Source: Apostichopus japonicus
Taxonomy: Eukaryota > Echinodermata > Holothuroidea > Aspidochirotida > Stichopodidae
Direction of reading: 5' to 3'
DNA length: 64,000 nucleotides
Assembly: GCF_037975245.1 (NCBI RefSeq)
Contig: NC_092567.1
Coordinates: 18,420,876 to 18,484,875 of the forward strand
The translations under genes and the position numbers were made by a program. The notes beneath the pieces were generated by a model, which saw nothing but the letters and a program-made list of their open reading frames with translations, did not search any database and was not told the origin of the DNA. Below, piece by piece: positions 31,072 to 60,061 of the stretch (position 1 is its first letter; each line of letters opens with the position of its first letter).

Positions 31072-31083
31072 AAATGTTATTAA

Positions 31084-37731: not shown

Positions 37732-37983
37732 TTATGCATGCACGGCTCTAGAAAAAACAAAGTGCTTTAAATATTCACACCACCAGTGGCACTAGACCCG
37801 GTTGGGGGGGGGGTGTATTTCACGTCCCCCTTCGAAGAGAACATCTTTGATTGTGTATGAGTATACATGAAGGTATATAGCATGCATCCTCACTATAAAG
37901 TTGAATGCTCGATATATTTTCAAAATACAAAACTTCTTTTTAATCGCGACATTTCCGACGTATTCAGGTTGTGCCATCATCTA

Positions 37984-38004
37984 CACTGTAAAAACTAAAA
38001 GGGT
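37984..38004 (+). repeat. Left terminal inverted repeat of the CACTA-like element
   Basis: Pairs with 60041-60061 (18/21 identical, mismatches at positions 5, 12 and 17 from the tip). Preceded by TA. Confidence 0.6.
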
Positions 38005-38061
38005 TTATTTACCCCAAAATAGGGTAAATGTAAATCCCGCATGTGGACACAAAGTATGGGT

Positions 38062-38840
38062 ATTTATAACCACATTTAGATGTGCATTTACCCTTTATTG
38101 TGTTGCTATGCAGGATTTACATTTACCCACTATTTGGTTTCTTTTACACAATTTAGGTGTGAATTTACCCATTATTGTGTTGCTATGCAGGATTTACATT
38201 TACCCACTTGTTGGTTAATTTTACACAATTTATTTGTAAGTTTACCCTTTATTGTGTTGCTATGCAGGATTTACATTTACCCACTATTTGGTTACATTAA
38301 CACAATTTAGGTGTGAATTTACCCATATTTGTGTTGCTATGCAGGATTTACATTTACCCACTATTTGGTTACTTTAACACAATTTAGGTGTGAATATACC
38401 CATATTTGTGTTGCTATGCAGGATTTACATTTACCCACTATTTGGTTACTTTAACACAATTTAGGTGTGAATATACCCATATTTGTGTTGCTATGCAGGA
38501 TTTACATTTACCCACTATTTGGTTACTTTAACACAATTTAGGTGTGAATATACCCATATTTGTGTTGCTTAGCAGGATTTACATTTACCCACTTTTTGGT
38601 TACTTTTACACAATTTATTTGTAAGTTTACCCTTTATTGTGTTGCTATGCAGGATTTACATTTACCCACTATTTGGTTACATTAACACAATTTAGGTGTG
38701 AATTTACCCATATTTGTGTTGCTATGCAGGATTTACATTTACCCACTATTTGGTTACTTTAACACAATTTAGGTGTCAATTTACCATTATTTGAGTTGCT
38801 AAGCAAGACTCACATTTACCCACTGTTTGGTTACTTTTAA
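38062..38840. repeat. Subterminal tandem repeat of the CACTA-like element (77-78-bp unit, ~10 copies)
   Basis: Units contain TGTTGCTATGCAGGATTTAC, ATTTACCCACTATTTGGTTA and ACACAATTTAGGTGTGAAT. Copies begin near 38104, 38182 and 38259 and continue at the same spacing to about 38,800, where they decay. The TTTACCC/GGGTAAA core also occurs in the terminal repeat and in the right subterminal region (59,740-59,870). In plant CACTA elements such subterminal motifs bind the TnpA-type protein; that role here is inference. Confidence 0.85.
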
Positions 38841-38973
38841 ACAATTTAGGTGTAAATTTATGACTTAGTTGTGTTGATGTGTGGGATTATTCCATTAGAT
38901 CTTTTGGTACTATTATGCTTAAGATGTACAACTACCTCTTTGATGCTGCTGCACATAATTATAATTATATTAA

Positions 38974-39196
38974 AGGTTTTCTGTATTGGCCCAAAATTAT
39001 AGCATGCTATATTCGCTAGATGTTTTCAAAGAATACTTTCCTGGAGGTCACTACCCTCCAATGGTTCACAGACATTCTACATTGAGCACACAAGATGACT
39101 GAATGTCTCAGTGAGAAAAATTTCCTCAAGAGTGGTAATAAAAACAGTTCAGAATTTTAAGCAAAGGTGACCATATTTGGCCAACACAGCATACCT
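38974..39196. mobile_element. MITE family B, copy 2 (inside the CACTA-like element)
   Basis: Same family as 31084-31331: TTAA at 38970-38973, left end AGGTTTTCTGTATTGGCC, right end GGCCAACACAGCATACCT. The right TTAA has changed to TCAT. Internal blocks (ACTTTCCTGGAGGTCA, CACACAAGATGACTGAAT) are shared. Confidence 0.75.
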
Positions 39197-41029
39197 TCAT
39201 TGAGCTACATAACACAATGCAATTTAATTGTGAAGATTCTTGAATTAATACAATGGGTAAGAATGTAAAATTAGGAGAAAACTAGAAACTTCAAACATGA
39301 ATACTACACTGCATAAACGTGATATGAATAATCAATGCAATAGCATGTTTATATCAATCTAGCAATATTCATGCATAATGTACAATATGGTGAAGCAACA
39401 CTTAAAGTTGGTAACATATGTGTATACTAGTAAAACCTTGACTAAAAAATGTTACATTTACTAATGTATGATCACATTTTCTCAACAATTAGAAACCGCC
39501 ACAACCCATTACAAGGCATGTCAGGTATTAAACCATGTAACAATTTTCATTTACATCGATGAATACATTTGTAAAATTAAGGTGTGCCAATCTTTTAACA
39601 TTAACATACATCTCTATTGACCACAAATATTACTTTCAGGTTGTCTGTTATGAATATGCTGTATCACTGTCACCTTAAAAATCTGGTATCACTCAAAAAG
39701 TGCATTACTTTGGCATAACATTGGTAAAAAAGACCATAACTCCCACTTTTATAAAATGGCTCAGCAAAAAAATGAGAAACTTGGAGAATATTAAGATAAA
39801 CAATAATAACTTACTAATAAAAACAATTTGTATGTAAACAACTAACTTTGCAAATCAATGCAGGTACATCAACATGCTTTTGTTTATGATCAAACCCATC
39901 AGTTCTCACTGACCATGAATGTTGCATCAACACAATAATGGTTTACATGATAAGACCTGTATGTTACTAAGTTGTAAATTAATAACTCTAAAACATACCT
40001 TAACTCTAATGTATGATTAATTATACAGTTCTTAGTGCTTTAACATTTCATGTTGATTTATCTTGAATACAACACTCAAAAAGTTGCATTAGAGTGGTGC
40101 ATGTTTATGTGCACCACCCCCACCCCACCAACCAAATTTTGTTGTGACAGAACAAGCCACAATATATGGAACTTTCTTGTCACTGATCTAATTGTTCCAG
40201 CAATTGTCTCCATGATTTTATTTATATGTGCATCAAGCATTACAAAGATTATCGATAACAACTTCCTGGTCTTGGTATAAAATGACAAAAACAAAATCAA
40301 ACGAGCAAAGATACGGTGATGCTTAAGTTTTGGCCTATGATTGTGAATGATCACCATTAACCATCTGTGTTGAGTGTAACCGAGGCTAACTGAGGAAGAC
40401 TAGCATACAATTAGTCTACACTAAGCTTGCTTCAACTAGACTGAACATTAAACCTTAATCACTATACCCCTCTATGTTTATTGTAGACCCCACAATTTAT
40501 CACAAAATATTACTGTACACAATTTGCAACATTCTTAATGCTCATCAATCTTGGTTTGAATGTATAAAAAATTTACTGGCTTAGATAATTTGCTTAATAT
40601 CAACTAATTGCTGTTTGGCCTTCTTATTACACCCAGTTCTAATTGTATTAACAGCTTATTATTGACTTTACTATATGACACCTTTTATAAAGTTGCATTA
40701 GTGTTCCAACTAAATTTTCGCCCCCAACATTGCTCTTCGTCATAACAAGGCATGTTACAGCACTTCAAACTTGTAGTTGCCCCTGATCTCACTGTTTCAC
40801 CAATATTGTAATGTTTAGTATTATATATCATTTAAGTGTATTAAGAATTACCCAAATTATCATTTTACACAATATTTGTCTTGTAAAATTATGCTAACAC
40901 ACTAAATCCCTGAAAACAACACTATGCAAATCCAGCAAACAATCTGAAAAAAATAACTAACAATACTTCTGGGTCAACAAATAACAGAAAAACAATAGAA
41001 CTTGAAGAAAAGTCACAAAATGAAATAAA
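39197..41029. other. Non-coding part of the CACTA-like element, 3' of its genes
   Basis: AT-rich, with no exon that fits the phase of the accessory gene and no recognisable domain in the short ORFs. It lies downstream of the accessory gene's stop codon and presumably carries its 3' UTR and subterminal DNA. Confidence 0.5.
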
Positions 41030-41314
41030 TCATGCTTGAAGTTTTGCAATTAATGAAATGATCTTTTGAGGCAATTTCCCCTTGTCTTTGCATTGCAGCA
41101 GAACATTTTGCAGAAATGTCAGTGTTCCTTTTACTTTGCCGTTATACTGTATGTTGAAAACATAATATGTAGCCAGCAGGATTAGAACTGCCTCAGGGAA
41201 AGATGCTGCAGTACTGCATTTTTCGTTTTCTGCAATGATTGTTATGTTTGATGGGTCCAGCGGATCCCCAGTGTATGTTATGACCGGTGTGTTGATTTCA
41301 ACATCCGAGCTAAC
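41030..41314 (-). CDS. Accessory gene exon 9: C-terminal helical domain and stop
   Basis: 94 codons plus TGA, acceptor TTGTTTGATAG. Encodes a VL-ATYYVFNIQY…TLTFLQNVLL helical domain typical of the C terminus of this multicopy animal family. Confidence 0.78.
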   Translation of the reverse strand, partial: VSSDVEINTPVITYTGDPLDPSNITIIAENEKCSTAASFPEAVLILLATYYVFNIQYNGKVKGTLTFLQNVLLQCKDKGKLPQKIISLIAKLQA

Positions 41315-44300
41315 CTATCAAACAATGAAATAAATAGGATGATTAATTCCTGATAACACATATTCAAAGGTAATCCAGCTTCTTCAGAATCACATACACT
41401 AAACTTGCATTTGATAATATTACTTGGGAGCTGATTTGAATAAGCATCATTTCTAGCTATAAATGAATATTGCGAATGTTTCTATAACTCAGGGTATATA
41501 TAAACCAGAATGTCAAATAACTTAGTGATTCCTTGCCATTATGAAGCAACATTAGATGGCAGATTTTCCAACTTCCACCGTGCTGACCTGATATCACCAG
41601 AAGTGCCATTGGCCTTAGAGTATCGAATAATAGGTGCCTATATAAGAAGATTGAATTTGAAACCAACTATCATTTCTTCAGCGATCAACTTTATTAAGAC
41701 TTGGCTCTAATTGAAGACAAGTGAACTGTGACCTCCATACAAAACCCTTCGGGATTTGCTACTTACCAAATGCTACCTAAATTCAATTCATGATATGTGG
41801 TGGTAACTAAAGGGTTCAGGTTTTCATGTTTGTTGATCTCAAATGACCTCTGACCACAATGAAAAACAGGAAGAACTACCTACTCACCAAGGGTTACCTT
41901 GTGTTATCTTTTAATTCAAAGAAAAAATAGGGATCATCTGCTCACCAGGGCTATCTACATATTACTCTTGAAGTGCAAACCATCTTTCACTTCTTGAGGT
42001 ATAGTGTTTACAAACCGAGGCCTCACACACACCCCGATCAGCATTGCATAGATTTTTTTGGCCTTAGAAGGGTTATCGACATATTACTCTTTACATCTTT
42101 TGCAAGTTTACAAATAATACACCAACTAATGAAAGGGTTATTAAAATGGGAAGCTTACATCATCATCACTGTTTATAAACAGAAAGTTGCGATCTTCTTT
42201 CAGGAAGCCAGGTAGTATCCAGAGAGCTGCGGTCCATGTAGCATCTGTAGCAGAAATAAACACTGAAGTTATTGTCTTCATTCAGTGTAAATGAATGTAA
42301 AATGTAACACAACAGTAAAAATTTTCATGCTGATTTCCTGAAAATAACATAATGATTTAGTAAGTTGATGTAGTGTATCAATGCAGTTTTATCTCTGCAC
42401 TCTTAAAAATAACTACATTGAAGTGTTCCTTAATTAATGTTTTATTGCAGGATTTAGTAAACCATCTAATTCATCCAATGACGACACTGTTGCTACTTTG
42501 CCTCATATGGTCACAACTTGTCTCCTTGCTCAGATTATCATGTATATATGAAACAGGATTGGCCACATTTTTCTTCATTATCTTGAAAGACCTTGGATTT
42601 TTTTTAAGTTTTCAAACATCTGCCATCAGTTTAACTAATTTATATTTTAAGAAGCTGACAAAATGCTTGTCTCAACTGAAACTGTTAAGACATATCTCCT
42701 AGTCTACATAATAGTAAACTTTTTTATTATTTTTGGTAATTAACTCAGCACTTTGAGATGTTAACTTACCCCTTTTGTCTTTCTCTGTCAATTGCTGAAT
42801 AAAGTTGTTGTATTCAACAAGGAATCGAAGAGTGCTCTTTGAGTGATTTGTGTTGTAGGTGATGATCTTTGCTGCAATGTCATCAAGATTTTTGTAGAAC
42901 ATCTCCGACACTGCATCCCAACTGATGATGGCTGAAAAATCTTCTATGATCTATGAATTAAGGTAATAAAAAGGATGATAATGACATTGTATTAATAAAC
43001 AACTTTCAAACAGGAACTTTCAGCCAAGTATTCGTGTTAGATCATTAAGTCAGTAAAAGAATCTTGTTTTGGCAGTTATTCATGATTTTCTTCAGTCAAA
43101 CCTCTATTTTAGTAGAAATTCTAAACATTCAAATACTCTAACATATCATCCATGGTATTTAGATTCACCTACTTTTTGAAAATCCCTGTCAAAGCTAACA
43201 ATGTGTTTCTTCCATGGTAAATAAAACAGCTATGATTAGCTCACTTGGCAGGTTAATTTGTGGCAAAATACACTCATGACCCTTTTCCTTGAACTTTGTC
43301 TACCTCAAATGATTCTTGAACTAAAAAAGGTAGGAATCATCTACTAACCAAATGCAATCAACATTCTAAGGGATTTTTAAGAAGCCAGTAACTGACAATT
43401 TTTCCACTTATTGCACTGTGTTTCGTGAATATCAGCTATGATTCGAGGAAGCTTCCCTTCCTGAGAAATCCTGAGAGCAAGCTATGCAGCATGAACACAT
43501 GTTCATTCACCCTTACATACACAAGCCTTAACATTGGCTTATGATTTCGTCAAACCAACAATTTCCAGTGTAGAACATTATAATCATAAGTCTTAATAAT
43601 TAGGAATCATTTGTTTGAAATTACCTGTTCTGCACAAAATGGAGTAGGAAATTTGCCTCTGATTTCTGCTATTGGTGGTTTCTCCTCAAGTACAAGTCTC
43701 CTTCTCTCTCCAAATGTCAGTGCCATTAATGACTTAATTTTGTTCTTGTCTTGTTTTTTCTTTGTTGATTCCTTTTGTAGTTCCTTAATGTGCAGTTTGA
43801 TAGTCTCCTCTGTTTCACCCTCAGGTAGAGTCCAATCAGCTCCCTCTTTTCGTTCTCCCTCATCAGTTGTTGCATGTGTAGATGTCTTCCTCTTCTTCAC
43901 AACTACATCCCTCGTCATGTGTCCCCTCTCATTTCTGAACTTATCTTTGAGTGCATTTTTCAATGCATCCTACAAAACCAAGATGCAAAAATGAATGGAA
44001 GCTGCAGTATGATGAGATAATCTGATATCAATGTTACATATTCTTGTAAAATACCTTTCTTCAGTCTGGACTTGTAATTTAAAGAGCTATGAAATTGTGA
44101 TGAACACTTGAACACAAAGTATATTGTAATTTTGTTACAAGGTCTTAAAAACAGCTGAACAATTCAAATTAAACTTCAACACTATTGTTAGGTATAAAAC
44201 TCTGCAACCTCACAATGTAATGTATGCACATGTTTCATCATGTCACCTCACCCATTTTAAAGAGTAGACACCTTGATCTTACAAGCATGCATATCTGGAC

Positions 44301-47300
44301 ATTCATGTCAGATGCATGCACAATGTGTACTGGTTCATGCATCTTCTCGGGTAGGCCAGTAAGTTATATGAATATGTATGTATACATAAATGTCACAGGA
44401 GGGGGCTAATGTGCAAACATCTGCATGTATACAAGACCCCAGACTACAATATCCCCCCTCCCCCACCCGCCCTGTGCTGCAGCAGTTCAACCCTTGCATC
44501 CACCCAGTTAAGTTCCCTCAAACTGAAAAGTACTTTTACAAACCAACAGCAAAATTAATCTATAGTGGATGTAAGATTTTGCCCTTGAAATGGCAGGAGA
44601 AACAATCTAGTTTTGAGTGCCCCATCATTTGATGTCTTTATTAAAAAGATCCAGCTGTACATAGTTCTTCACTAGCACCAGCTACTGGATATAAAAATGG
44701 CTTTTGACAATTAAGCAAATACAGTGAAAATAGTCTCCTGTCTACCTGAAAAGCACCAATTTGACTGATACCATTAGTAGTGGTAGTTTTGTACAAAGTA
44801 GTCGAAATTACACAATCTAGTCAGGTGCTTTTTATATGTACATATACGCCCACCTTCTAGATAATAAATGAAGAGCTTAATCATATACTTACATAAGGCT
44901 CACAGAATGGTAATTTGATTGCCAAGTTTGGAAAGGACTTTATGACTGCTTTAGCTGCTGTATTGTATTGATCTGTAGTAGGATACCTACAAAAAAGAAT
45001 ATCACTTTATAGTTGATTCACATACAGGGTTAGTGCCAGCTGTAAAATTTAGGAGGGGGGGGGGCAATTACCCACTTCACCAACTCTTTTTGGGGGGGAT
45101 TTAGTATATTGGGGGAGCCTTTTTAAAATGTGGAGTGAAAGGAAAAGATGGTACTGTCTGGGGCTCCTAAAGCTCCAATTTTTAACCTTCATATCAGCAG
45201 GACAGGGCTTGGTTGGGTGAGACTCATACAGGCCCAATGATCTCCCATAATAGAAATTTCTTATGTTACGGGATACTGCGGACTATCTCTATAGTGGTCT
45301 CTTGTATCATTCTTGAAGATATATTGTCTAAATTGTTTTGTTTTTACTATGTAATTCTTAATTCCTTGTTTTAGTCTGATGTTGATCTGGGAGTGAAATA
45401 AACCTTACACACACAAACACCAAAAAGATGGAAATTACATTTTTAAAATAATATCAACAACTTATTTTGCAACTTAATAATAACAGTGAAAAGTTCACCC
45501 ATTTACCCACTAACCATCAAGTCCTGCTTGTACTAAGTACCTTACCTAGCACCCCCATTCCCCCCAGACAGGCTGAGTCAGCTAAAAGGCTATGATTTTA
45601 TATTTGAGGTCGCTGCCTGAGCTTGTTTGTTTTGGTAATGTGGATATCCCCATCTGAAGTTAAAATATGAACAGAACTTTAACAAAGTTGTAACCACATC
45701 ATTCCAAGGTTCCACAATATTAAAATCTGTAGGTTATTGACACATGACGTCTTTATATGCAGAAAATCAAATGCGAAAATACGGGCTTCCAAAGGTGTTA
45801 TTGTTCCAGGTTAAATAACACCACAATTTCAAAGATGGCATACTTACACATTGACATATTTCAAAGCTAGTAATTCTGAGATGTTGAAAAGTCAAGATTC
45901 CAAAGACTTGTGCATTATGCATGCGTATGACATTTGAAGGCAAAAATTTACACTGGTTTAGCATTAGTGATTGAAAAGACAAACTATTAATATTCAAATA
46001 GGGAAAGGTACTTACACAGTAAACAAGCACATTTTATCAAATGTAGCTTGGATTACAGCAGATTTAATTCTGTTGCTGACAGGTCCCCCTTTTAATAGTT
46101 CAACCAAGATGTCTCTCCTAACATCATCTTGATGCAGCTCAAACTTGTTTGGCCATGGCAAGAACTTTTCTTCTTCATGAAAGCTATCAAGCATGCAAAA
46201 AGGGTAAACAAAACTTCATTAGCAAAATGTATAGAATTAGCACTTTCAATAAAGTGACCCTAAACAAATTTTACATGAACAATACAGATTATACTTTGAC
46301 ACAGGTTGAACAGCTTGATTTTCACTACTTCAGCTGTAAGTTGTTGAACATGCATGTCAGTACTTAGCAAAATGTGACTTCATATTAAATGGCCTCTTCA
46401 GCATGGCCTCTTGAGCATGTTTTATTTCATGATAACAGCACTTTAATATATGGTATTTATTATTATTTATTATTCAAATAAGGGGCTTTGTACTGAACTT
46501 CTTTAGGGAATGTGTGGGACTTACTGTTAACCAACCAAGTTCCACCAACTCCCCACCCCCCATACCCTAATATATTGTAGTGATAGCTTAAAGAGAAAAT
46601 GCAGTCACCCTGATTTGAATTAGTATACTGTAGTATAATATTTCTATTATGGCTCTTCCTACTCATGTGACAATGTTTTTGTTACTGAATTGTTGAATTT
46701 ATGCACCATAACTCTTAGATTTGTCTTTTATATGCAATATTTATGTTCTAAAATGCCATAAAATATAATTGTAAGGTCAGCACCAGAAATTTGCAAGGTT
46801 TAGCTGATATTGCAAATTAGTTTGGGGCAACTGCTTATTCCCTTAAATAAGCTCTTTTTTGCTTCTGTCAAGGTAGGATAATAATTCAAACATGAAATGT
46901 TACATGTCTTACCTGTCTGAAACATCACTGGTACAAGGTACATCTCTTTCATTTCCAACCAATATAATGGTGTCATCTGAACTTGAAGAGCTTGTAAATG
47001 AAGTGGCACTGAGGCATGCAACTGACAAAGGAAAGGAGTGTCCAAAATATGTATTATAAATTATTTTTCTAATTTGCAAAACCCCAGGATGTAAGGATTA
47101 AATATGTGTTGCTCATAAGTACAAGAAACAAAATAACTGGATTTGAATTGCAATTTACTATTTACTATTAAATCTTCAACTGCTAACCAATTTGATATTG
47201 ATTAGCACTTTCATTAGACAGTAATGCTTTTTGATTGATATTGCAAACTGTAAACTGTTACAATGAAAATTTGAAGTAGTATTCAACTTTGGCATACCAA

Positions 47301-50300
47301 TTTGTCCCTTGCAGAATACCTTCAGACTGTGGTAATTTCTTATCTTAAAGCTTCCCTGAAATTTCAAATATGAATACTATAGTGACTTCCTCCTGTCAAA
47401 TATCCCAAAACTTTCCACTACTGTAGGGGAAAGCCATGAGGAGAGGTTATGACAATGTACATACATTCATACAAGAATGTTTTATGTGCACATATTGTCC
47501 TTCGAACTACCCAAGTACCAATAAGTTCCAAATGGGGTTCACACATCACATTATGCCAATAAGGCTCCTTCATGAAATGGTAATAAACATGCTGCTGATA
47601 GGCAAATTTTTCTGGACAACAATCTTTTTGCAATCGTGTACAAGAAGCATTTATACTTACCTTCATCTCTTTCACCAATCACATTCAGTTTAAGTGCTTT
47701 ATCTTCCATCTGCTCTTCTTCTATATCACCGTCAATGTCCACCCAGTCGTCAAAGTCTTTATCAAAGACCTGAAGCCGAAATTTCTTTATCCCAAATTGA
47801 GATTTGATTTCTGGTTCTACATCACTTGCACTACATAAGAAAACCCTTTCTCTGGATCCATAAGTTACATGGTACCGTTTAAGTGCTTCACTGAAGACAC
47901 AAATATATAGAAACTAAAAAGTTGTTTCTTCTAACCTTTGAAGTTCAAAGTAACAATGATAAGGAATGAGATGCTCTATTTTAAGTATTAATGTTTCTCT
48001 AAACAAAGTACTTAAGTGTTACCATTCTCTGATTTTGATTTGTGTAAATTGATAAGGGTAAATGACAAGCAAAATCTTCATAAGCAAATATGACCCATTT
48101 TTTTTGAAAACACAATACATAGCTATGGAAATGTTGACTGTAACCAATAGTGCGCAAAACCATCAAAACAAAATACACTTTACCACCTTTGATAAAGATT
48201 GCATCTATTTTGCCAAATTCATGCAACCTATTTTCTCTTGCCTCTAGAACCATGCAACAACCTTTTGCATACAATGAACTGGGTAATTCAACAAAAGCTA
48301 ATGTATGCACTTCTTCAATGCTTGGAAATTGACTTTTCAAAGCTCTCTGAATCCCATCACAAAACTGATGTAACTTTTGAACGTCCCCTCCTGAGTTGGA
48401 TGTCATTTTGTCATCCAAAAAATTCTGACCAGCTCCATAATAGCACATAAGTAATTGATGACGCCTTGCCAATGTCTTACACAAATTCCGCCTGTTTTTC
48501 TGCCTATTGGCAATTTCTTTGAAATATGCATGTTTAGCTTCAAACCTCATTGTCCAGCAGTGAACAAGAGGTCCATATTTCAATATTGAACGAGGGTAAT
48601 GCAATAAGTAATGACTTTTTGGTTTAATTCTATCTTCAGGAAAGAGCTCTTTCAGAGCAACCAGAAATCCATGCACCAAATATTCCAAGTATGCAACCAT
48701 TTCACACGGTATAGAGGGAGCAAATGTAATTTCACAAATATCCATAAGTGACAAAAATAGTTCCCAGTTTTCATTTCCCTCTGGAATTGAGCTTCCTATG
48801 ATTAAAGGCAATAATCTCATCAGGCACCATGTTTGAGATGCTGTTTGTTTGATTTTGAAACTTCCCAGGTTAGCAGTGGTATTGCAAGTTGGTTTGCTTT
48901 TCTGATCACTTTTTCCAAAGGGAAAAAGTTTCAAAGCACTGTTAAAAGATTCCAAAGTGAACAAGCCATCCTGAATAAATGTTGTCACAACCTTCGTCAT
49001 TAATTCTGGAACAAGTCCTTCGAGCAAATCATGAGCTGGATCAGGTGGTAGACAACTGATTACATCAAAGTATTGCAAATCTGACAAAACAGATTTAGAA
49101 GCTACTCCATAAACATGCCTAAGACCTTGATTTTCCATAACTAACTGCACCTGATGTTTGTGACCAACACTTGTTCTTTCGATTAAACTGGATGAATCAA
49201 AATGATCTTGAATGTCATTACTACTTGCCATGCAAAATCTACATATTCTACCAGCATGAAAATGTTGCTGAAAGCCTCCTAACTGATGTGCTGCCAAGTT
49301 TTCCATGGAAACCAAACTAATGCAACCCTTGAATGTAAACTCCTCCTGGTTTAAAGTTGTTATTGTCACCCCCTTACTTTCTAAGACTTTAACATCCTCA
49401 AGAAGCGGTTTGAGCACTTTCCCAAAGCCATACTGTTTTATTAATCTTGTACAGCAGAGGCAAACAAGCTGAATTGATGACAATTTTGACCGAAACTTTG
49501 GGGATAAATTTCCAAGAACAAAATAAAATGCAGCAACTTTGTAGCTGTTAGCTTTACTTCTAAGTGGGTTCACCACACCAAAATCATTATAATAAAAATG
49601 AACTTGGAGTGCATGTGGCTCCAAAGAGAATAGGGGATGATTTTGAAATGCTTCACCATCACAGTAATCCTCATATCGTTTGTTCCCATGTCTAGAACGG
49701 GACTTCAGAACTTTTGCTAAAATATCATCATGACTTAAAAGACTTTTTAGAGTATCAAGCAATGGTACATAAATGAATGTATCATCTTTCCCACAGGTGG
49801 AACCTAGCACATGTTCAACTGGCTCGACTAAACCAAAATGCTCCTTATAAAAAGCTGTCTGTTTAATGTCTGAGGCCAACTTTTCAAAGATGTTATTTTT
49901 CTTTTCAAACTTTTCATCGATAAAATTAAAGATATCAGGATTTTTAGCCACTGTGAAACCAGAAGCTGAAAGTTTTTCTTTGATCTCTGTGCTATCATCC
50001 CTTGAACTTTTATAGATGAGTTCAGATAGCTCTAATATTATGCTATTTGTAACAGTAAGTGGTAGTTTATGCTTCTCTTTCATGCCTAAGATGAAAAGAG
50101 CAAAGTCTCTTTCCGTGGATCTTTCACCGATTTCTCTGATGTGTGATCCATCACCCAGAGCAGCAGCATCGATAGCACTTATTCCAGTTGATTCTGCAAG
50201 ACTATTTTTATGCGAATTATGAGTCACATCATCAACTTCTAAACCAATGTTTTCCGTCACTAGACTTGTGCCTACTTCAGTATCCTCATGCCCACCAGAG

Positions 50301-50888
50301 TTACTGTCATGCCTTATGTTAACATCGAACACTCTTTTATGAAATTTCCGCAGATGGGAATAAAACGTGCTGAACACCCGATATTTTCTTTCACAACCAT
50401 CTATTCCACATCTTATGGAGAAGTTGGGTTCAATACTATGTGAGAATCTTATGTGATGTAACAACTTTTTGAAAGTAATGGTCCTGAAAGTGTTACATAT
50501 TGAACAACTTTGCAACTGCAAGGATGCCATAAGGCCTAATCTAACAAAACCTTGGCTAGGCTTTATTAGGATGGCTTGGCATAAGTACTGGACAAACCTC
50601 ACAGCATTAATGCACACTCAGTTTTAATAGTTCAGTCTTGGCCTGCGCTAGCTAGGCTGTAAACTTTGATACAATGGTAGGCCACAGTGTAGGCCCTGCA
50701 TTGTACTAGTGGCTGTTACTTGTAAGACATAGCCTAGGCTTAGTTATAAAGTCTTCTAATCTTATATAGGCGAATAAGTAGCAGAACAGTTAGGCTAGTA
50801 AAGCCTATGCATAACAGTTATTTAATCTGTACTTTTATAAACCAAACAACTCTTTCAAGGGCTTAACGTCAACTTACACTTGTGACAT
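41030..50888 (-). CDS. CACTA-element accessory gene (PB1-like N-terminal domain), nine exons, 503 aa
   Basis: Minus-strand join in frame: 50888-50878, 47893-47661, 47021-46913, 46183-46016, 44986-44893, 43969-43625, 42950-42770, 42244-42159, 41314-41030 (1,512 nt, stop TGA). The first exon is only ATGTCACAAGT before a GTAAGT donor. Exon 2 encodes a ubiquitin/PB1-like module (KKFRLQVFDKDFDDWVDIDG); later exons give FHEEEKFLPWPNKFELHQDD, YPTTDQYNTAAKAVIKSFP, DALKNALKDKFRNERGHM, a lysine-rich stretch and a C-terminal helical domain ending …LPQKIISLIAKLQA. This combination resembles multicopy, poorly characterised animal proteins often labelled 'sterile alpha motif domain-containing protein 3-like'. 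By position it corresponds to the tnpA product of En/Spm. Its first intron contains the transposase ORF. Confidence 0.75.
42159..42244 (-). CDS. Accessory gene exon 8
   Basis: Phase 1 to 0, acceptor TTTCTGCTACAG, donor GAT|GTAAGC. Encodes DATWTAALWILPGFLKEDRN plus an acidic end. Confidence 0.72.
42770..42950 (-). CDS. Accessory gene exon 7
   Basis: Phase 0 to 1, donor AGGG|GTAAGT. Encodes IIEDFSAIISWDAVSEMFYK and a long helical stretch ending LTEKDKRG. Confidence 0.75.
43625..43969 (-). CDS. Accessory gene exon 6: basic, charged region
   Basis: 115 codons, phase 0 (acceptor TGGTTTTGTAG, donor CAG|GTAATT). Starts DALKNALKDKFRNERGHM, then a KKRK-containing linker that could serve as a nuclear signal, then a helical segment with a TFGERRRLVLEEKPPI block. 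Confidence 0.78.
44893..44986 (-). CDS. Accessory gene exon 5
   Basis: Acceptor CTTTTTTGTAG, donor TAT|GTAAGT, phase 2 to 0. Encodes YPTTDQYNTAAKAVIKSFPN and LAIKLPFCEPY. Confidence 0.75.
46016..46183 (-). CDS. Accessory gene exon 4
   Basis: Acceptor CATGCTTGATAG, donor GT|GTAAGT, phase 2 at both ends. Encodes PWPNKFELHQDDVRRDILVE followed by LLKGGPVSNRIKSAVIQATF, a helical block common to this protein family. Confidence 0.75.
46405..46458. repeat. Short dispersed repeat, copy 2
   Basis: Near-identical to 30104-30157 over about 50 bp; lies in an intron of the accessory gene. Confidence 0.65.
46913..47021 (-). CDS. Accessory gene exon 3: serine-rich linker
   Basis: Acceptor CCTTTGTCAG, donor CAG|GTAAGA, phase 1 to 2. 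Encodes a Ser/Asp-rich stretch (TSSSSSDDTIILVGNERD). Confidence 0.65.
47661..47893 (-). CDS. Accessory gene exon 2: PB1/ubiquitin-like module
   Basis: Acceptor TTTGTGTCTTCAG, donor GAAG|GTAAGT, phase 2 to 1. Encodes EALKRYHVTYGSRERVFLCS and the acidic PB1-like loop FDKDFDDWVDIDGDIEEEQ. Confidence 0.75.
47999..50540 (-). CDS. tnp2-like (CACTA) transposase with N-terminal zinc fingers
   Basis: One long exon. With the shared first exon (50888-50878) and acceptor GGTTTTGTTAG it gives 850 residues; if translated alone, the likely start is the ATG at 50530 (843 aa). N terminus: CSICN…H…H and CGIDGCERKYRVFSTFYSHL, two C2H2-type fingers. Central and C-terminal parts carry YYNDFGVVNP, CLPPDPAHDLLEG and MRFEAKHAYFK, which resemble the D…D.xH…E pattern of tnp2-type transposases (Asp316, Asp497 and Glu664 from ATG 50530; catalytic roles are inference). 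It ends in a stop at 47999, just before exon 2 of the accessory gene, and so lies wholly in that gene's first intron. No internal stop or frameshift. Confidence 0.8.
50878..50888 (-). CDS. Shared first coding exon of the CACTA element (ATG + 8 nt)
   Basis: ATG TCA CAA GT followed by GTAAGT. Ends in phase 2. Both candidate acceptors (before 50540 and before 47893) supply one base that completes the Val codon and continue in the right frame, giving MSQVLGLMASL… or MSQVEALKRYHV…. Confidence 0.65.
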
Positions 50889-51949
50889 GTTGCTTTAGAT
50901 TCATATAAAAATACAAGCGGCCGTTGAAGGTGAAGTCCAGTCGTGTCAAGTCTCGTCAAATGTGACGGCGAAGCGCTTCTGCGGGAACAAACTATGAAAT
51001 ACTAGGATTGGTCGCCAAGCAGTGCAGTGATGACAGTATACTGTATACTGTACTGTACGTACGTAGGTCTAAGGCATTGTGTTAGCGCCAAGCGCCAAGC
51101 GCGAACGAACCACCCTTTGTGAAAGAAAACTTGTCATTGGCTTAAAGTTTGAACCTTTCATTTGATATTATGTGGGGTTCTTTCTAATTTTTCAGATATG
51201 CACCCATTTTCTGGAATACCAACTTTGAATCTTTTACATTTTTACCAATATTTATTACCACATCCACATTATTGAAAGGCTGTATTCAGTGAATTAATGT
51301 AAAGTAGTGTTTTAGGAAATTTGTTTTTAACCAATGAGAAGTAAGAACACTTCTGAGACGTATAGTCTGTCATTATTCTCTCGGCGCGGCCTGGCTGCAA
51401 ACGTAACTTTTATTTCTAGTACGAATGAGTACATCATTGTAGAAAATTCTATAGAAGTCACAATGAAAAAAAATGTTTCAGCTATGGTCGACGTTTAAGG
51501 GTCAGGCATTGTTATCATCCGTTGTGGGGATAAATGTATGCTGGCCGTGCGAAAAAGCACAAAACACTTAAACGTACACAATCATGACAAAAATATTGTT
51601 CCAGCTAGCTCAAGCTGTACTTCTAAGAATATTTTGTAAACAAGTGTCTCGAGAAATACTCACGTTTAGGCTCTATCAGTTTGAATTGTGAGTCAAACCG
51701 TCTTCATGGGCCAATCCAGAAGGGGAGGGATTCAGTGTTTCGAGAAAATGATCGCAGTAGCTTATATACTTTCCGTTGTTTTGTTATGTACATAAGCGTA
51801 CGGGACTACCTTCGTTGAGGGGGGGGGGGGTCTGACGCAACACAAGCTAGCATGCTCGAAAAAGAGCGGCTGGTCTGAAGAAAAGGGTACCTTCTGATCG
51901 ATGGGTTGCAAACCTTCACCCTGTCTCATACGCGCCCATGGTTAGACCT
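50889..51949. other. Upstream region of the CACTA genes up to the Gypsy insertion
   Basis: Holds the presumed promoter and 5' UTR of the shared first exon. No ORF with a recognisable domain. It contains TA/GTACG-rich palindromic runs near 51,035-51,065 and a G run near 51,818-51,828. Confidence 0.45.
51945..51949. repeat. Left target-site duplication of the Gypsy element (GACCT)
   Basis: GACCT immediately before the LTR; the same 5 bp follow the other LTR at 58918-58922. Confidence 0.85.
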
Positions 51950-52792
51950 TTAGATGTTTCTGTTGAGAAACTAATCTAAAGTATAAAAAGATCGACATAC
52001 CTTTAAATACTATGTCTTTCCACGTCCATATCCCGGATTGTTGCCAACGCCAGAATCCTCAGGCTAAGTCAGCTGGTGTTTAAGTTACCAGACTCTGTAT
52101 ATGGTTGAAAGCTAGATACTACGAGCTAGATGCTACAGGCTAGACGCTAATGATGGCGCTATGACGCTAAATAATATACGGCTTCGCGATCCAGTGGCTT
52201 CCAGTAAATAAGTGGTATATGCTGTATCGCGTGAAGGCTTTCGCGACCGAATAGTCTCTAGGTACTAAAAAGATATATGTATGAACACGTAAACACTCCA
52301 CGAATCGGTGGCGAATATTTTCGCCAGCCCCTTTTAGAAGTGTTGATGCTCACGCTACATCTAGGTTATAATAAAATATAAGTCCTCGCTCGGCGCGATG
52401 GCTGTAGATATAAGTAAAAGTAGGTAAGGCGGACCTACGTATAAGTGCTTTAGGCAGAATCAACGGTAGGCTATATATAATTGGTAACGCTAAAATGTTC
52501 CTCGAAGTTAAGTCGACTTTAAGGTTGGATAAAGTGTCCTCGAGTAAAATCCACAGATAAAAATAAACGTTCTGTTAAAAGATCCTTAAATATACTAAAA
52601 TACGAGAATCAATCGCTGTAGAAGTCGTTCGCTACAAAATATATACGGTTGGCCAGGTTAATCGCTCGCGTCGCTCGTCGGTTGTGCCCACGCTTCCTAG
52701 AAACTTTCTAACCCCTGAAAATCAGGGGCTTCCGGAAACCCGTCACGGAATGTTCAATTCCAAAGGAGGGTGGACGAAACTAAATCACTACA
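51950..52792 (-). repeat. 3' LTR of the Gypsy element
   Basis: 843 bp. In element orientation it begins TGTAGTGATTTAG and ends CATCTAA. Same length and, by eye, same sequence as 58075-58917. Confidence 0.93.
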
Positions 52793-52806
52793 ACTAGCTC
52801 CTCCCC
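52793..52806 (-). promoter_or_regulatory. Polypurine tract
   Basis: GGGGAGGAGCTAGT on the minus strand directly abuts the 3' LTR, the expected place for plus-strand priming. Confidence 0.7.
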
Positions 52807-52871
52807 AGATTGCTGAGTAAGTGAGAGCAATCGAGTAAAACGATAAGTGTCGTACAACAGGAGCTAATGAT

Positions 52872-55800
52872 TCAATCGATGACGATGACTTCAACATAGC
52901 GGCTCGGCCAATGGACGTGTCTACCCGACCGAGTAACTCTGGTTGGTGGCGGCTTGGCGTTTTCTACAGGACGTGTAGGTGTCGAGGTAGCCGGGAGATC
53001 GGGTGTGGTAGGCGTAGTCGGTTTGGCTTTGTCAATGCGTCGAGACGGAGCTGAAGGTTTAGCGACTGTTGTGAATTCGTCGTCGAGGTACGCTGGTTTG
53101 AGTCGATCCAGACTGATGGTTGATCGCTTGCCACGTACCAAAAGAATAAAGAATTTATCATGTCGCTCAATGACTTGGTAAGGGCCATTGTAGTGAGGTT
53201 GTAATGGTGCACGAACAGCGTCGATACGTATCCAAACATGAGTGCAGGTATGCAGGTCTGGATGTATTTGGTTGCGGTAAGGAGGCGTTCTGGTCAAGGC
53301 AGGACGAAGGTTAGTCATGTACTGACGAAGACGATCCACGTAGTCAGATGGGTCCATCAGACTATCATCATCAGACGGTGAAACAATGTCACTGGGAAGA
53401 GCCAGTGTTGTGCCAAAAACCATTTCTGCAGCGGAACAGTTCATGTCCACCTTAAGAGAAGTGCGAATGCCTAAAAGGGCCAAAGGAAGTACTTCTGACC
53501 AGTGTGTGGAATCGGCAGCTGAAAGTGCTGACTTTAATTGCCGGTGAAAACGTTCCACAAGACCATTGGCTGCCGGATGGTAGGCGGTCGTTCGGATGCG
53601 ATGTGTTCCTAGTAGTTGGTTAAGGTGGCGAAAGAGGGAAGACTCGAATTGCGAACCTCTATCTGTTGTTATCACCGAAGGAACTCCAAAGGTAGAGACC
53701 CATCGTTTAACAAAGGATTTGGCTACGGTTTCGGCTGTGATGTTCGAAATCGGAATGGCTTCCGGCCATCTTGTAAAGCGGTCAACGATGGTGAGTAGAT
53801 AGGAATATCCCTCCGAGGGTGGCAGTGGTCCAACAATGTCCATGTGAATGTGCTGGAAGCGGGTCTGCGTCATCGGGAAACTACCAATTGGCGTTTTGGT
53901 GTGACGGTGAACCTTAACTTGTTGACACTTAATGCATGATTTGCACCAATTCGAGACATCTTTGTGTACGTTTGACCAAATGTAACGCTGCGTGATTAGT
54001 CGTTTGGTAGCATTGATGCCAGGGTGCGAAAGTGAGTGAAGAGAATCGAAGACTGCTCGTCGAAATTGTTGCGGAATGTAAGGTCTGGCTGTGCCAGTAG
54101 AGACATCACAGGTAATGGTGCCCTCCGCTGCGGGAAGGGGTACATCTGTAAGCTTTAACGAAGATGATTTCCGTAGCTGAATAAGCTCATCGTCGTGTTG
54201 TTGCGCAGATGCGATTGCTGTGAAATCGAGTGGTGATGAGGAGATAGTAACGCCGTATACGTTACGAGATAGCGCGTCTGCTACTACGTTGTCGCGACCT
54301 GGAATGTGACGTAGGTCGGTGGAGTATTGCGAAATATAATCTAGGTGACGAATTTCGCGAGGTGAATAGCGATCTGGCTTGGAAGCAAAGGCGTAAGTAA
54401 GTGGCTTGTGATCCGTGTAGACCGTAAAGCTTCGTCCATCGAGCAAGTGACGGAAGTGTCGAATGCTAAGGTAGACCGCCAGGAGTTCTCGACCAAAGGC
54501 ACTGTAGCGAGTTTCTGCTTTCTGGAGACGCTTAGAGAAAAATGATAATGGACGCCATGTACCATTGATAAACTGTTGCAGGACACCGCCCACAGCAAAA
54601 TCGGAGGCATCCACCATTAGTGAAAGGGTCGCTTGAGGCAACGGGTGATGAAGTAATGTCACCTGAGCTAAGGCAGTCTTGATGTCTTTGAAGGACTGGT
54701 GTTGTGCATCGGTCAGTTGAATAGATTTGTTCTTGACTTTAGACGAGAGTAAGTCAGTAAGAGGTTGCATAAGAGTAGCACAATGTGGAACAAAACGTCG
54801 ATAGAAATTGGCTAAACCAAGAAATGCACGCAACTGAGTGAGGTTTTCAGGTGCCGGGAAGTCTTGAACTGCTTGAACCTTCTCAGGCAGGGGACGGATT
54901 CCCTGACTGTCAACGTGATGGCCCAAGAATTCAAGTGAAGACACTCCAAGCTCACATTTACTAGGGTTGATATTAATGCCATAGCTGTCAAGTCGTTGAA
55001 ATAACTGGTTGAGGTGTTGATAATGCTCCTCGGCAGAGGAACTAGCCACTAAGAGATCATCCAGATAGGCGTATACAAAAGGCAAGCCTCGAAGTACCTC
55101 GTCGATGAAGCGTTGAAAGGTTTGAGCTGCGTTTTTTAGACCGAAAGGCATCCTAACGAACTCGAAGAGACCGAAAGGTGTCGTGATCGCGGTCTTTGGA
55201 ACGTCGGCCGGTTCAACTGGAATTTGGTGGTATGCACGTACAAGGTCAATTTTAGAGAAGATTATCTTGCCATGAAGGGTACCAGTAAAATCATGTATAT
55301 GCGGTATCGGGTAGCGGTCTGGAATAGTGACGCTGTTGAGGGAGCGATAGTCTCCACACGGTCTCCAATCGCCTGACTTCTTGGGTACCATATGTAGAGG
55401 TGAAGACCAAGAACTTTCAGAGGGTCTGATAATACCTAATTCCAGCATATGCTCAAATTCGTTTTTGGCAAGACGTAATCGATCAGGTGCGAGACGACGA
55501 GGACGGGCGAAAGTAGGTGGTCCTTTTGTGAGGATATGGTGGGTGATGTTATGTTTGACAGTGGCAGCTGTTCGACTGGGATTGACGAGGTGCGGAAACT
55601 GACGTAGTAACGAGCGATACTGTGAGTCGTGGTCATCAATGTGAAAAGTAAGATTGGAAGACTCTACTGTTGAACGAATACCAGTGATACTAAGGGAAGT
55701 ATGAAGATCAAGCAGTCGACGATGCTTGATATCGACTAGTAATGAGAAGTGTTCAAGGAAATCTGCACCTATGATAGGAGTTGAGACGTCAGCCTTAACA

Positions 55801-56108
55801 AAAATCCATCGGTAAATACGGCGTAAACCTATGTTGAGGGTTAGCGAAGATTCACCATATGTACCTATGTTGGTGAGATTTGCAGCTCTTAAGAAAGATC
55901 TCGCTGGTGTAGTCTTCTCTTTGCTCGTGGCAGGAATAACACTAACCTCTGCACCGGTGTCGATGAGGAAGCGGGTTCCTGTTTCCCTGTCCATTACGTA
56001 GAAAAGACGACTCTTAGGAGTGGGGCCAGACAGCTGTGTCGTCCCTAGTTGCTGGCCTGCTTGTTTAACAGATCCTGGGACTTCGGGTGTTTGCAAGGGG
56101 GGCGACAC
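52872..56108 (-). CDS. pol: Pol polyprotein (protease, RT, RNase H, integrase)
   Basis: 1,078 residues, unbroken. Retropepsin with DTG at 50-52; reverse transcriptase with YLDD at 348-351; RNase H with Asp500, Glu541 and Asp566; integrase with a zinc-binding H-H-C-C head (about 691-728, ending CKSCIKCQ) and catalytic Asp757, Asp816 and Glu852; then a GPY/F-like module ([21 protein letters not shown]) and a proline/threonine-rich tail. The frame is -1 relative to gag and overlaps it by 64 nt, so it is probably expressed by -1 frameshifting; the listed start is simply the first Met of the open frame. Confidence 0.96.
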
Positions 56109-56914
56109 TTTCTTGCATTATCCCCAAAGCTGTTGTGAAAGTAACAAAAGCTTGGGTTGCCAGCTGGTGAACGGCCACGAGGACGACTACGGGAGCGGGA
56201 GCGTTGTTTTAGCTGCTGGACGGTCCTGGTGAGCTCTTCTACTTGTAGGGATAGCTTATCCACTAGAGCGACGAGGTGAGTTGTGTCGGGTGAAATTGAT
56301 GTTTGTGCAACTTGTGGAGTGGCTGCGATGGCTGGTACGGAGTCAACGACTGCGGCGACGACTGGTGAGGGAGTAACCTCTAGAATTTTGTCGGCCAACG
56401 AGGCCAAACCGTGGATGTCAACTTGCTCGGAGGTAGAAGCGAGAATGAGCTGAACATTCGTGGGCAACCGTTGTAAGAAGAGTTGCTTCAGGATAGAGCT
56501 CTCGAGTTGCTGGTCTCCGAGGAGTTGGTACATGCGACGCAGTAGTTGACTCGGTTTTCTGTCGCCGAGGTCTTCAGTGGTCAGCAGCTGGCGTAGGCGC
56601 TTTTGTTCCGACTGAGATGTACGCTTTATGAGCTCGGACTTTAGAAAGTCGTACCGGTTCTTGGATGGTGGGGTGAGGAGTATGTCCCTAATTTCCTGCG
56701 CCACTTCCGGTTGGAGAGAAGAAATGACAAAGGCGAATTTGGTATCTTGGCTGGTAATACGGCGTGTAACGAAAAGGCTTTCTACCTGACCAAACCACAG
56801 GGCGGGGTCGTTTGGATAAAATGGGGGTAGTCTAAGATTAACTGCCGTAATGCTCGACTCTTGTGGCGGCTCGGGTTTAGACATGGTCGTAGCGGTTTCA
56901 TCTGGTGTTGCCAT
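56045..56914 (-). CDS. gag: Gag protein
   Basis: 289 residues from ATG 56914. A helical capsid-like region ([18 protein letters not shown]… ALADKILEV) is followed by an Arg/Ser-rich basic stretch and a C-terminal cysteine motif [19 protein letters not shown], common in invertebrate Gypsy Gags in place of a standard CCHC knuckle. A G-TTA-AAC heptamer lies in the gag frame near its end, inside the overlap with pol. Confidence 0.9.
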
Positions 56915-57014
56915 CGTAACGTGAATGCCCTAGGCTACTAATGGAAATATACAATACAAAGCTAACACTTGAAGTGTAATAACAACTATGTGGGATAAAA
57001 TCCAAATATATACG

Positions 57015-57755
57015 CTACAGATGGGACAGCAAATTACATACGTCTGCTGAAAATGCCCTACAAATCTCTAGATGCCACCGTTGTTTTAGCGAAGACACTG
57101 CATGTAGACCGTCGTAGAGCTTGGTAAAGGTATTGCGTACAATCGCTCTCGTAATCCGACCAGTACGATTGCGACGTGTAGTGGGACGTCGAATGAAAGA
57201 ATGCCAATTTACTGTACGCGTAGTGATCCCTGACTGATGCTGTTGGTTGATATCGTGGATCGAGGCGTTAATAACGTCTAGCTTGCTGTCTAAGTCTCGT
57301 TGAAGTTGGTGTAGTTGCTCAGTGGAAAGAGTTGGCGTGGCTAAATTCTTGTGACTTTGAAATTTCTCGAACGAGGCCGTAGGGATGGTGACAAAAGAAA
57401 CTATACAATTAGGGTGAGTCTGTCTAAGTGTGTCACGAAAATGAATGAGCCTAGCAATAAGTTGATCAGCTGAGACAGATGAACAAGTAATAACTCGACT
57501 TTGCCTGGAAGTGCCTGTGAATGCTAACAAGTCGTTGATACCAGCTGCAAGACGTACTATCAACCAGTCGCTAGGGTTAAATCGTTGAATACGCTGTTGT
57601 GTGAGGGCGAGTAATTCTCCTACAGTGGCTCCACGCTTAATAACAAATTCAATACGATGCTGGAAGCTAGGTGGCGTAGTATAACGATCAAATGAATAGG
57701 CTCTAGAGTCAGCTACAAACAATAAATTTACAACAGGGCGGCTAATGTTAGACAT
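57015..57755 (-). CDS. SGNH/GDSL-hydrolase-like protein encoded upstream of gag
   Basis: 246 residues from ATG 57755 (the open frame runs back to 57941). Motifs fall where SGNH hydrolases have them: VADSRA near the N terminus (block I, Ser17 in place of the GDS serine), GATVGELL (possible block II glycine), AAGINDLL (block III G-x-N-D, Asn74), and YDGLH near the C terminus (block V D-x-x-H, Asp215 and His218). There is no signal peptide. Esterase domains are known in ORF1 of CR1-type non-LTR elements and in some tyrosine-recombinase elements; I do not know of them as a separate ORF ahead of gag in Ty3/Gypsy. Function (lipid or ester hydrolysis) is inference. The 100-nt gap to gag suggests reinitiation, an internal start or splicing. 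Confidence 0.65.
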   Translation of the reverse strand: MSNISRPVVNLLFVADSRAYSFDRYTTPPSFQHRIEFVIKRGATVGELLALTQQRIQRFNPSDWLIVRLAAGINDLLAFTGTSRQSRVITCSSVSADQLIARLIHFRDTLRQTHPNCIVSFVTIPTASFEKFQSHKNLATPTLSTEQLHQLQRDLDSKLDVINASIHDINQQHQSGITTRTVNWHSFIRRPTTRRNRTGRITRAIVRNTFTKLYDGLHAVSSLKQRWHLEICRAFSADVCNLLSHL

Positions 57756-58054
57756 TGGCAAAACATGTCTTAGGTCCTTCGTGAACAACCAGAAAATAGC
57801 GATAGGATGTAATAAACGTGAAAGGCCTAAATAATGAAGTGAGATAATCCTCCGTCTGGTAAATAATGAGGCAAACCGGTAATGTCTCTTGCCAAGAGTG
57901 AGTATCGAAAATAGACCAACACTGAAGTAACAAGACTCCAACGTTACACAACCATTGTAACACTAGTACAAAGTAAGCCCAACGATAGGCTACAGACTAC
58001 AGAGTAAACAAGCAGAAGCTAAATCTAAAACAAGGCCAGAATATGGGTGAAAAA

Positions 58055-58072
58055 ATCACGTCGGGGTCACCA
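58055..58072 (-). promoter_or_regulatory. Primer binding site, tRNA-Trp
   Basis: Plus-strand ATCACGTCGGGGTCACCA equals the 3' end of animal tRNA-Trp plus CCA over 18 nt, two bases from the 5' LTR. The element's RNA would pair with that tRNA to prime reverse transcription. Confidence 0.88.
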
Positions 58073-58074
58073 AT

Positions 58075-58917
58075 TTAGATGTTTCTGTTGAGAAACTAAT
58101 CTAAAGTATAAAAAGATCGACATACCTTTAAATACTATGTCTTTCCACGTCCATATCCCGGATTGTTGCCAACGCCAGAATCCTCAGGCTAAGTCAGCTG
58201 GTGTTTAAGTTACCAGACTCTGTATATGGTTGAAAGCTAGATACTACGAGCTAGATGCTACAGGCTAGACGCTAATGATGGCGCTATGACGCTAAATAAT
58301 ATACGGCTTCGCGATCCAGTGGCTTCCAGTAAATAAGTGGTATATGCTGTATCGCGTGAAGGCTTTCGCGACCGAATAGTCTCTAGGTACTAAAAAGATA
58401 TATGTATGAACACGTAAACACTCCACGAATCGGTGGCGAATATTTTCGCCAGCCCCTTTTAGAAGTGTTGATGCTCACGCTACATCTAGGTTATAATAAA
58501 ATATAAGTCCTCGCTCGGCGCGATGGCTGTAGATATAAGTAAAAGTAGGTAAGGCGGACCTACGTATAAGTGCTTTAGGCAGAATCAACGGTAGGCTATA
58601 TATAATTGGTAACGCTAAAATGTTCCTCGAAGTTAAGTCGACTTTAAGGTTGGATAAAGTGTCCTCGAGTAAAATCCACAGATAAAAATAAACGTTCTGT
58701 TAAAAGATCCTTAAATATACTAAAATACGAGAATCAATCGCTGTAGAAGTCGTTCGCTACAAAATATATACGGTTGGCCAGGTTAATCGCTCGCGTCGCT
58801 CGTCGGTTGTGCCCACGCTTCCTAGAAACTTTCTAACCCCTGAAAATCAGGGGCTTCCGGAAACCCGTCACGGAATGTTCAATTCCAAAGGAGGGTGGAC
58901 GAAACTAAATCACTACA
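58075..58917 (-). repeat. 5' LTR of the Gypsy element
   Basis: 843 bp, matching 51950-52792. It carries the element's promoter; TATA-like AT stretches are present but I did not assign a start site. Confidence 0.93.
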
Positions 58918-60040: not shown

Positions 60041-60061
60041 ACCCGTTTATTTTTTAGAGTG
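60041..60061 (-). repeat. Right terminal inverted repeat of the CACTA-like element
   Basis: Reads CACTCTAAAAAATAAACGGG inward on the minus strand; TA follows on the plus strand. Pairs with 37984-38004. Confidence 0.6.

Follow-up and report, generated by a model that had tools for sequence, protein, structure and literature searches.

A sea cucumber CACTA/En-Spm-like transposon with a transposase nested in the first intron of an accessory gene

The window analysed here is a stretch of 64,000 nucleotides from the sea cucumber Apostichopus japonicus (contig NC_092567.1). It contains a multi-copy, CACTA/En-Spm-like transposon at 37984..60061 on the minus strand, with ends about 22 kb apart, in which a tnp2-like transposase gene lies inside the first intron of a second, accessory gene. 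The ends of this element, its target duplications, its copy number, its nested gene order and the accessory gene models that start at an 11-nt exon are established. We consider it rather likely that the element is a recently multiplied animal cut-and-paste transposon of the CACTA/CMC type, in which one transcription unit gives two products and the accessory protein is, by hypothesis, an analogue of the plant protein TnpA. The assignment to CACTA/En-Spm-like elements had been made in a preliminary description of the same DNA, and it is borne out by the inverted repeats with CACT ends, the short target duplications and the transposase in intron 1. The true ends, a Gypsy insertion lying between them and changed catalytic residues, all treated below, are additions to that description.

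Results

The whole insertion (37984..60061, minus strand) was delimited by the limits of homology between copies, the 5' limit being found in 19/19 fetched copies and the 3' limit, within 6 bp, in 5/5. The 5' terminal inverted repeat, CACTCTAAAAAATAAACGGGT (60041..60061, minus strand), starts with identical letters in 19/19 other copies, and the 3' terminal inverted repeat, CACTGTAAAAACTAAAAGGGT (37984..38004, plus strand), matches it at 18 of 21 positions. By reading copies at both ends, the target-site duplication TA was placed at 60062..60063 on the 5' side and at 37982..37983 on the 3' side, and a 2-bp duplication was present in all six copies read in this way, the window included (TA in five, TG in one). 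TA precedes the 5' end in 18 of 20 copies, two of the 20 (L020 and L021) sharing one flank. These two are on one chromosome and agree in their 5' flank and in private transposase residues, which marks them as a segmental or assembly duplication and not as two insertions.

The genome contains 23 exact matches to the 27-bp 5' end, and a reversed control contains none. Near-identical transposase copies are found in the same genome, 17 of them full-length at 98-100% and the others in pieces. One exact 5' end (G000:C21:6181286-6181312), which has no listed transposase copy nearby, may belong to an element that is truncated or non-autonomous.

Between exon 1 and the 5' end of the window copy there is a Gypsy long terminal repeat (LTR) retrotransposon (51949..58917, minus strand), which is not part of the element and has 844-bp LTRs that are 100% identical, with GACC on both sides. 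The upstream DNA of 19 other copies matches the window to 51949 and resumes at 58918, small insertions apart; as homology continues on both sides, the Gypsy element, about 1.06 kb upstream of exon 1, is nested in the window copy, and none of the 19 has an insertion at that point. Without it, the element is 15,105 bp long. A comparison for terminal repeats near the genes (50889-51948 against 38841-41029) gave a best score of 12.5, with shuffles at 11.6 +/- 0.9 and 3/20 of them reaching 12.5. It failed because the real ends are outside these regions, the 5' end beyond the Gypsy element and the 3' end at 37984. A CACT pair at 51737/40900 was rejected as ends because it had no target duplication. 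In 12/19 other copies (L009-L017, L019, L022 and L023), an extra stretch of about 370 bp is present at window 51685-51692; it has an 8-bp flank overlap, resembles a small nested element and is missing from the window copy.

The accessory gene was then followed through the other copies. Accessory exon 2 is found 113-507 bp downstream, on the same strand, in 22/22 close transposase copies, a count that omits one degraded locus (C1:11998770-12000767, 73-95%) with no accessory row beside it. Conversely, 22 of 23 exon-2 matches adjoin a close transposase. An exon-2 match of 88% (G000:C19:26657282-26657509) has no listed close transposase within 5 kb; it may stem from an older copy or be an accessory gene that has become free of the element.

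The linkage extends in part to 28 diverged transposase loci (32-40% identity), some of which are copies of one another. In a protein search with the sea urchin protein P0004 as the accessory query, 16 of these had an accessory match at most 12 kb downstream on the same strand, compared with 0/28 downstream on the opposite strand, 0/28 upstream and 0.01 expected. The 65 transposase rows consist of 24 that make up the 22 close copies, 28 for the diverged loci, and, left out of the counts, 10 separate N-terminal pieces of diverged loci and 3 from one degraded locus; of 64 accessory rows, 21 from close copies were left out and 43 were used. Seven diverged loci were read directly with an accessory profile and six were positive (L033, L034, L035, L036, L041 and L042), L041 by its head exon only, with an independent E-value (i-E) of 5e-7 where the chance level in control DNA is about 0.3. 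The profile reading adds L034, L035 and L042 to the 16 positives of the protein search.

Accessory sequence is also carried by 3 of 15 public transposase matches, namely P0003 (A. japonicus), P0007 (Holothuria leucospilota) and P0018 (hake); only six of the 15 are NCBI gene models able to span introns. The gene order is the same in the gene models P0007 and P0018. The match of P0007 to the accessory profile is by construction, because its own tail was used in building it; P0003 and P0018 were outside the profile. In the cavefish protein P0019, a weak match to the transposase C-terminus (i-E 0.025) stands directly before the accessory start, and the same gene order is probably present there. 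Scans of viral contigs with the transposase and accessory alignments gave no relatives. The association of the accessory gene with tnp2-like open reading frames (ORFs) in other copies, to which the preliminary description had looked as a check, was therefore found, and as judged from these genomic positions the accessory gene travels with the transposase.

The accessory gene begins with exon 1, ATGTCACAAGT (50878..50888, minus strand), which in the models P0001 and P0002 is 11 nt long and ends in phase 2 before the donor GTAAGT; the exon, phase and donor agree with those first described and were confirmed in the DNA. Exon 1 and its donor are unchanged in 20/20 close copies read, which says little because the copies are young. 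Intron 1 (47891..50877, minus strand; 2,987 nt in the DNA) wholly contains the transposase ORF, as had been proposed. The acceptor of accessory exon 2 was also rightly described as in frame, but exon 2 starts at 47890 and not at 47893. Public annotation of the accessory gene, which consists of gene models, includes the 11-nt exon, and going by these models the junction between exons 1 and 2 is not due to chance.

A candidate alternative acceptor lies before 50540, and the stretch from there to the transposase ATG (50530..50540, minus strand) is unchanged in 19/20 copies. It was confirmed in the DNA that this acceptor continues the frame of exon 1 into the transposase ORF. The claim that exon 1 is in fact spliced in frame to the transposase found no support: the transposase records P0008, P0009, P0012 and P0013 and the model P0007 start at an internal Met, and L033, a diverged family with a transposase 36% identical, has no strong in-frame transposase acceptor (among 110 sites there, those that are open and in frame come 33rd and 69th). 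The same observations favour nested but independent genes, with a transposase promoter inside intron 1, exon 1 serving the accessory gene only and the fit at 50540 arising by chance, and of the 32 AG sites that precede the transposase ATG, 3 keep the frame open anyway. However, none of the 32 outscores the site at 50540 (2.4, compared with -1.5 to 12.2 leave-one-out for the authentic acceptors of this gene, using a matrix built from just 8 sites). There are also five further upstream ATGs between exon 1 and the transposase ATG, so an unspliced leader would be a poor message, and the En/Spm precedent uses one unit. Independent genes are possible but, in our view, unlikely. Transposase translation probably starts at its own ATG. 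No AATAAA or ATTAAA is present in the 108 nt from the transposase stop to accessory exon 2, which fits the expectation if transposase transcripts run on.

A counterpart of exon 1 was found in L033, where the transposase ORF is preceded, at a distance of about 1.8 kb, by a 14-nt exon, ATGTCGTCAGTTCG, with the donor GTAAGT. When joined to the phase-2 acceptor before the accessory head, it gives MSSVRYLFMYG, for which the window counterpart is MSQVEALKRYHVTYG; the first-exon products are alike (MSSVRYLF in L033, MSQVEALK in the window). An acceptor-like site stands directly before the accessory head in L033, where it scores 8.6, in L041 and in L042, and about 55-70 nt before the accessory ATG in L034 and L036 (by eye). 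L041, too, offers a phase-2 acceptor, and its accessory head lacks a preceding ATG. An accessory ATG of their own is found in L034, L035, L036 and L042, and since it follows an acceptor-like site in L034, L036 and L042 (by eye), a noncoding first exon is likely in these three. Thus, a layout of first exon, transposase in intron 1 and accessory head looks general, with the coding 11-nt exon as one form of it.

The accessory gene has nine exons, encodes 502 aa without an internal stop and ends at 41030, and all eight of its introns are GT-AG. Following exon 1 on the minus strand, and placed by matches to P0001 and P0002, are exon 2 with the PB1-like head (47661..47890), exon 3 (46913..47021), exon 4 (46016..46183), exon 5 (44893..44986), exon 6 with a basic KKRK stretch (43625..43969), exon 7 (42770..42950), exon 8 (42159..42244) and exon 9 with the stop codon (41030..41314). 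Comparison of the two proteins showed that exon 4 is present in P0001 and skipped in P0002. A search of public proteins with the accessory product gave four matches. Among these, P0002 (an A. japonicus entry of NCBI/UniRef called 'isoform X2', 446 aa) is the window product minus exon 4, identical at 446/446 residues, MSQV included, and P0001 (A. japonicus, 'isoform X1', 502 aa) has the same MSQV start and ten differences from the window product, so it comes from another copy.

The KKRK stretch suggests nuclear entry of the predicted accessory protein. For the head, Pfam PB1 was matched by the cavefish protein P0020 at 19.9 bits, under the cut-off of 23.6 (E 0.0007), and is absent from the listings for P0019, the near-twin of P0020, and for P0001 and P0002 of A. 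japonicus. The structure model has an overall predicted local distance difference test (pLDDT) value of 65, with the helical part mostly at 70-90 and the head below 50, and the accessory profile gave one weak match among solved structures, an endolysin (E 0.18). The pooled ratio of non-synonymous to synonymous polymorphism (pN/pS) was 0.31 for the accessory gene, from five intact copies after one of six, L032, was dropped for a 1-nt deletion, against 0.86, or near neutral, for 17 transposase copies; this comparison has few sites, nearly all from the window against the rest. The transposase value is taken as evidence neither way because the copies are young.

These properties could also be those of an anti-silencing or chromatin factor, or of a repressor, and not of an end-binding transposition partner. 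The PB1-like head and helical body would suit such a protein, the head evidence being weak. The accessory gene also looks more constrained than the transposase on the few sites compared, and a copy with changed catalytic residues, that of the window, keeps intact accessory exons. On the other hand, an obligate partner would account just as well for a gene order that is kept across deep divergence, and we regard a factor of this other kind as conceivable and not very likely.

The transposase (47999..50530, minus strand; ATG at 50530, stop codon at 48001-47999) has 843 aa, with a zinc-finger-like N-terminus, a RAG1/Transib-like core and a BAH-like C-terminus. The zinc-finger reading comes from Cys/His spacing, with no Pfam match. 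The fold resembles RAG1, and residues 709-833 (window ~48032-48406) resemble BAH domains such as DNMT1 BAH1, from which a chromatin reader is possible. The Transposase_21 (tnp2) score was 15.6 bits for the window and 25.3 for a Holothuria homologue, both under the cut-off of 28.6, and a precomputed PF02992 annotation exists for P0006, P0007 and P0011.

The catalytic layout of the family is D315, D410, C430/C433, H640/H644 and E664, that is D, D and E with C2C and H3-4H between. H640 is present in 11/13 aligned rows, the others having one Tyr and one gap. D497 was considered for the role of second catalytic Asp, but D410 was preferred, as it lies ahead of C2C in accordance with the published rule. 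In the window copy, codon 315 (49586..49588, minus strand) is Asn and codon 410 (49301..49303, minus strand) is Glu; both are Asp in 13/13 aligned homologues and 16/16 other full-length copies. As N315 and E410 replace catalytic Asp, the transposase of the window copy is probably inert. The chance of at least two of the three catalytic sites being hit among 14 changes is 0.0008, in a test chosen after seeing the changes. An uninterrupted frame with a start codon is found in 15/17 full-length copies, which makes functional tests practical.

A fusion protein could be the real main product, in which the transposase, cut two codons before its catalytic Glu, continues into exon 2. This junction, where ...HCWTM is followed by SE, occurs in both P0003 (A. 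japonicus) and P0007 (H. leucospilota), and the donor after 48546 (AG, then GTTTGA) ranks 3rd of 31 phase-2 GT sites and is present in 20/20 copies. However, both proteins are gene models, and one could have served as a guide for the other; 3/4 diverged families lack the GT, and the hake model P0018 joins elsewhere, which makes the fusion improbable. That the locus is a host gene or a domesticated one and not a mobile element is barely credible: named gene models exist and both catalytic Asp are changed in the window copy (the post hoc chance above), but the 22 close copies, with 5' ends read in 20 and both ends and duplications in 6, refute it for the family and leave it for the window copy only.

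The 3' subterminal region contains tandem repeats (38074..38860; 10.2 copies of 77 bp), and the motif GGGTAAA occurs 17 times in the last 1,017 bp of the element. Also in the 3' part, a stretch of about 205 bp (38968-39172) is repeated at 81% outside the element (31078-31285). Elsewhere in the window, self-matches revealed a tandem array at 9875-11223, its repeat unit measuring about 219 bp.

Discussion

In the transposon that we propose, a promoter upstream of exon 1 would give one pre-mRNA. Splicing of exon 1 over the transposase to exon 2 would then yield the accessory protein, and retention of, or splicing into, the intron 1 region would yield the mRNA of the transposase, with translation mostly beginning at the transposase ATG (50530). 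The accessory protein could be the functional analogue of En/Spm TnpA, being nuclear and self-associating through its PB1-like head. It might act at the ends of the element, with the 3' 77-bp repeats as the candidate site, and there help or regulate the transposase. The window copy would probably make the accessory protein but an inert transposase.

Several results weigh against this proposal. Regarding linkage, the protein search left 12/28 diverged transposases without an accessory match, of which three were recovered with the profile, and 27/43 diverged accessory matches are not near a listed transposase; both figures are rough because the searches score just the best candidates. L043 had no accessory match in the 3.5 kb read. 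Regarding exon 1, an open phase-2 stretch that starts with ATG accompanies 4 of the 17 donor-like sites lying ahead of the transposases in four diverged families, and one such chance stretch, 8 nt long, occurs in L034, which does not need one. As phase-2 exons can thus arise by chance, the L033 case rests on its consensus donor and the MS-V likeness, and the poorly ranked in-frame acceptors of L033 count on the same side. Regarding the accessory protein, P0001 matches no Pfam family, and a fold search with the accessory model gave no PDB match at E <=0.001. Finally, the array is at the 3' end only, with none matching the 77-bp repeats at the 5' end of the element.

A wider reading, which we offer tentatively, is that there is a deep animal CACTA clade from echinoderms to fishes, having a PB1-headed TnpA analogue, one alternatively spliced unit and a RAG1-like transposase in intron 1. 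The widespread animal 'SAMD3-like' genes would then be largely copies of its accessory protein gene, and vertebrate SAMD3 would be a domesticated copy joined to a SAM domain. The element described here in any case ties an animal gene family that databases call only by its likeness to SAMD3 to transposons, and so provides it with a source and a testable role.

Comparison with known systems

In NCBI, P0001 goes by the name 'sterile alpha motif domain-containing protein 3-like' and P0007 by that of 'Sterile alpha motif domain-containing protein 3', but unlike SAMD3, neither of them has a SAM domain match. The accessory protein presumably resembles the C-terminal part of vertebrate SAMD3. Among the matches listed, in open-licence papers, neither a link between SAMD3 and transposons nor any description of an animal CACTA element that carries this second gene was found.

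As the core of the transposase is RAG1-like, its partner protein is of interest beside RAG2. No RAG2-like match was obtained for the accessory protein in Pfam, structure profile and fold searches, its model being weak. Unlike in RAG1/RAG2 and TransibSU, the gene order here is nested in an intron and the target duplication is 2 bp, that of Transib being 5 bp.

The closest animal comparison is with SmTRC1 of Schistosoma, which is described as CACTA-related and of the Transposase_21 type, with alternatively spliced transcripts and 2-bp duplications (PMC1636069). The sea cucumber element is like SmTRC1 and the animal TRC elements in having an animal host, a CACTA relationship, a transposase that is probably of the Transposase_21 type and a 2-bp duplication. 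It is unlike them in its ends, which are CACT where those of TRC begin CCC, and in its size of 15.1 kb, compared with about 4.5 kb for SmTRC1 (PMC1636069). For the parts of the SmTRC1 products outside the transposase domain, no detectable conservation is described (PMC1636069). Occurrence in an animal element, which the preliminary description had pointed to, is not new as such, given the alternatively spliced CACTA-like transcripts that SmTRC1 is described as having. The second gene family and its nested layout were not found in the searched open-licence literature.

En/Spm of maize has two transposase ORFs and the sea cucumber element has one. In En/Spm, the intron-1 region of tnpA supplies the large tnpD ORF within one unit, TNPA binds subterminal repeats, and TNPA and TNPD are both needed (PMC2613891). 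The sea cucumber element shares with En/Spm, Tam1 and Tgmt the CACT-type ends, the subterminal repeats, a tnp2-like transposase in the first-intron region and a second gene of many exons, and differs from Tgmt in its target duplication of 2 bp, which is three bp in Tgmt (PMC2613891). Unlike plant CACTA elements, it has repeats at one end and an accessory family with a PB1-like head, the difference from TnpA being drawn without comparison of TnpA sequences. Plant TNPA and TNP1 have little sequence in common (PMC2613891), so a different-looking partner in the sea cucumber is no surprise. The two-gene organisation of plant CACTA elements is found again in an animal, where the second protein looks different, and this recurrence suggests that a partner is a general need of this type of transposase.

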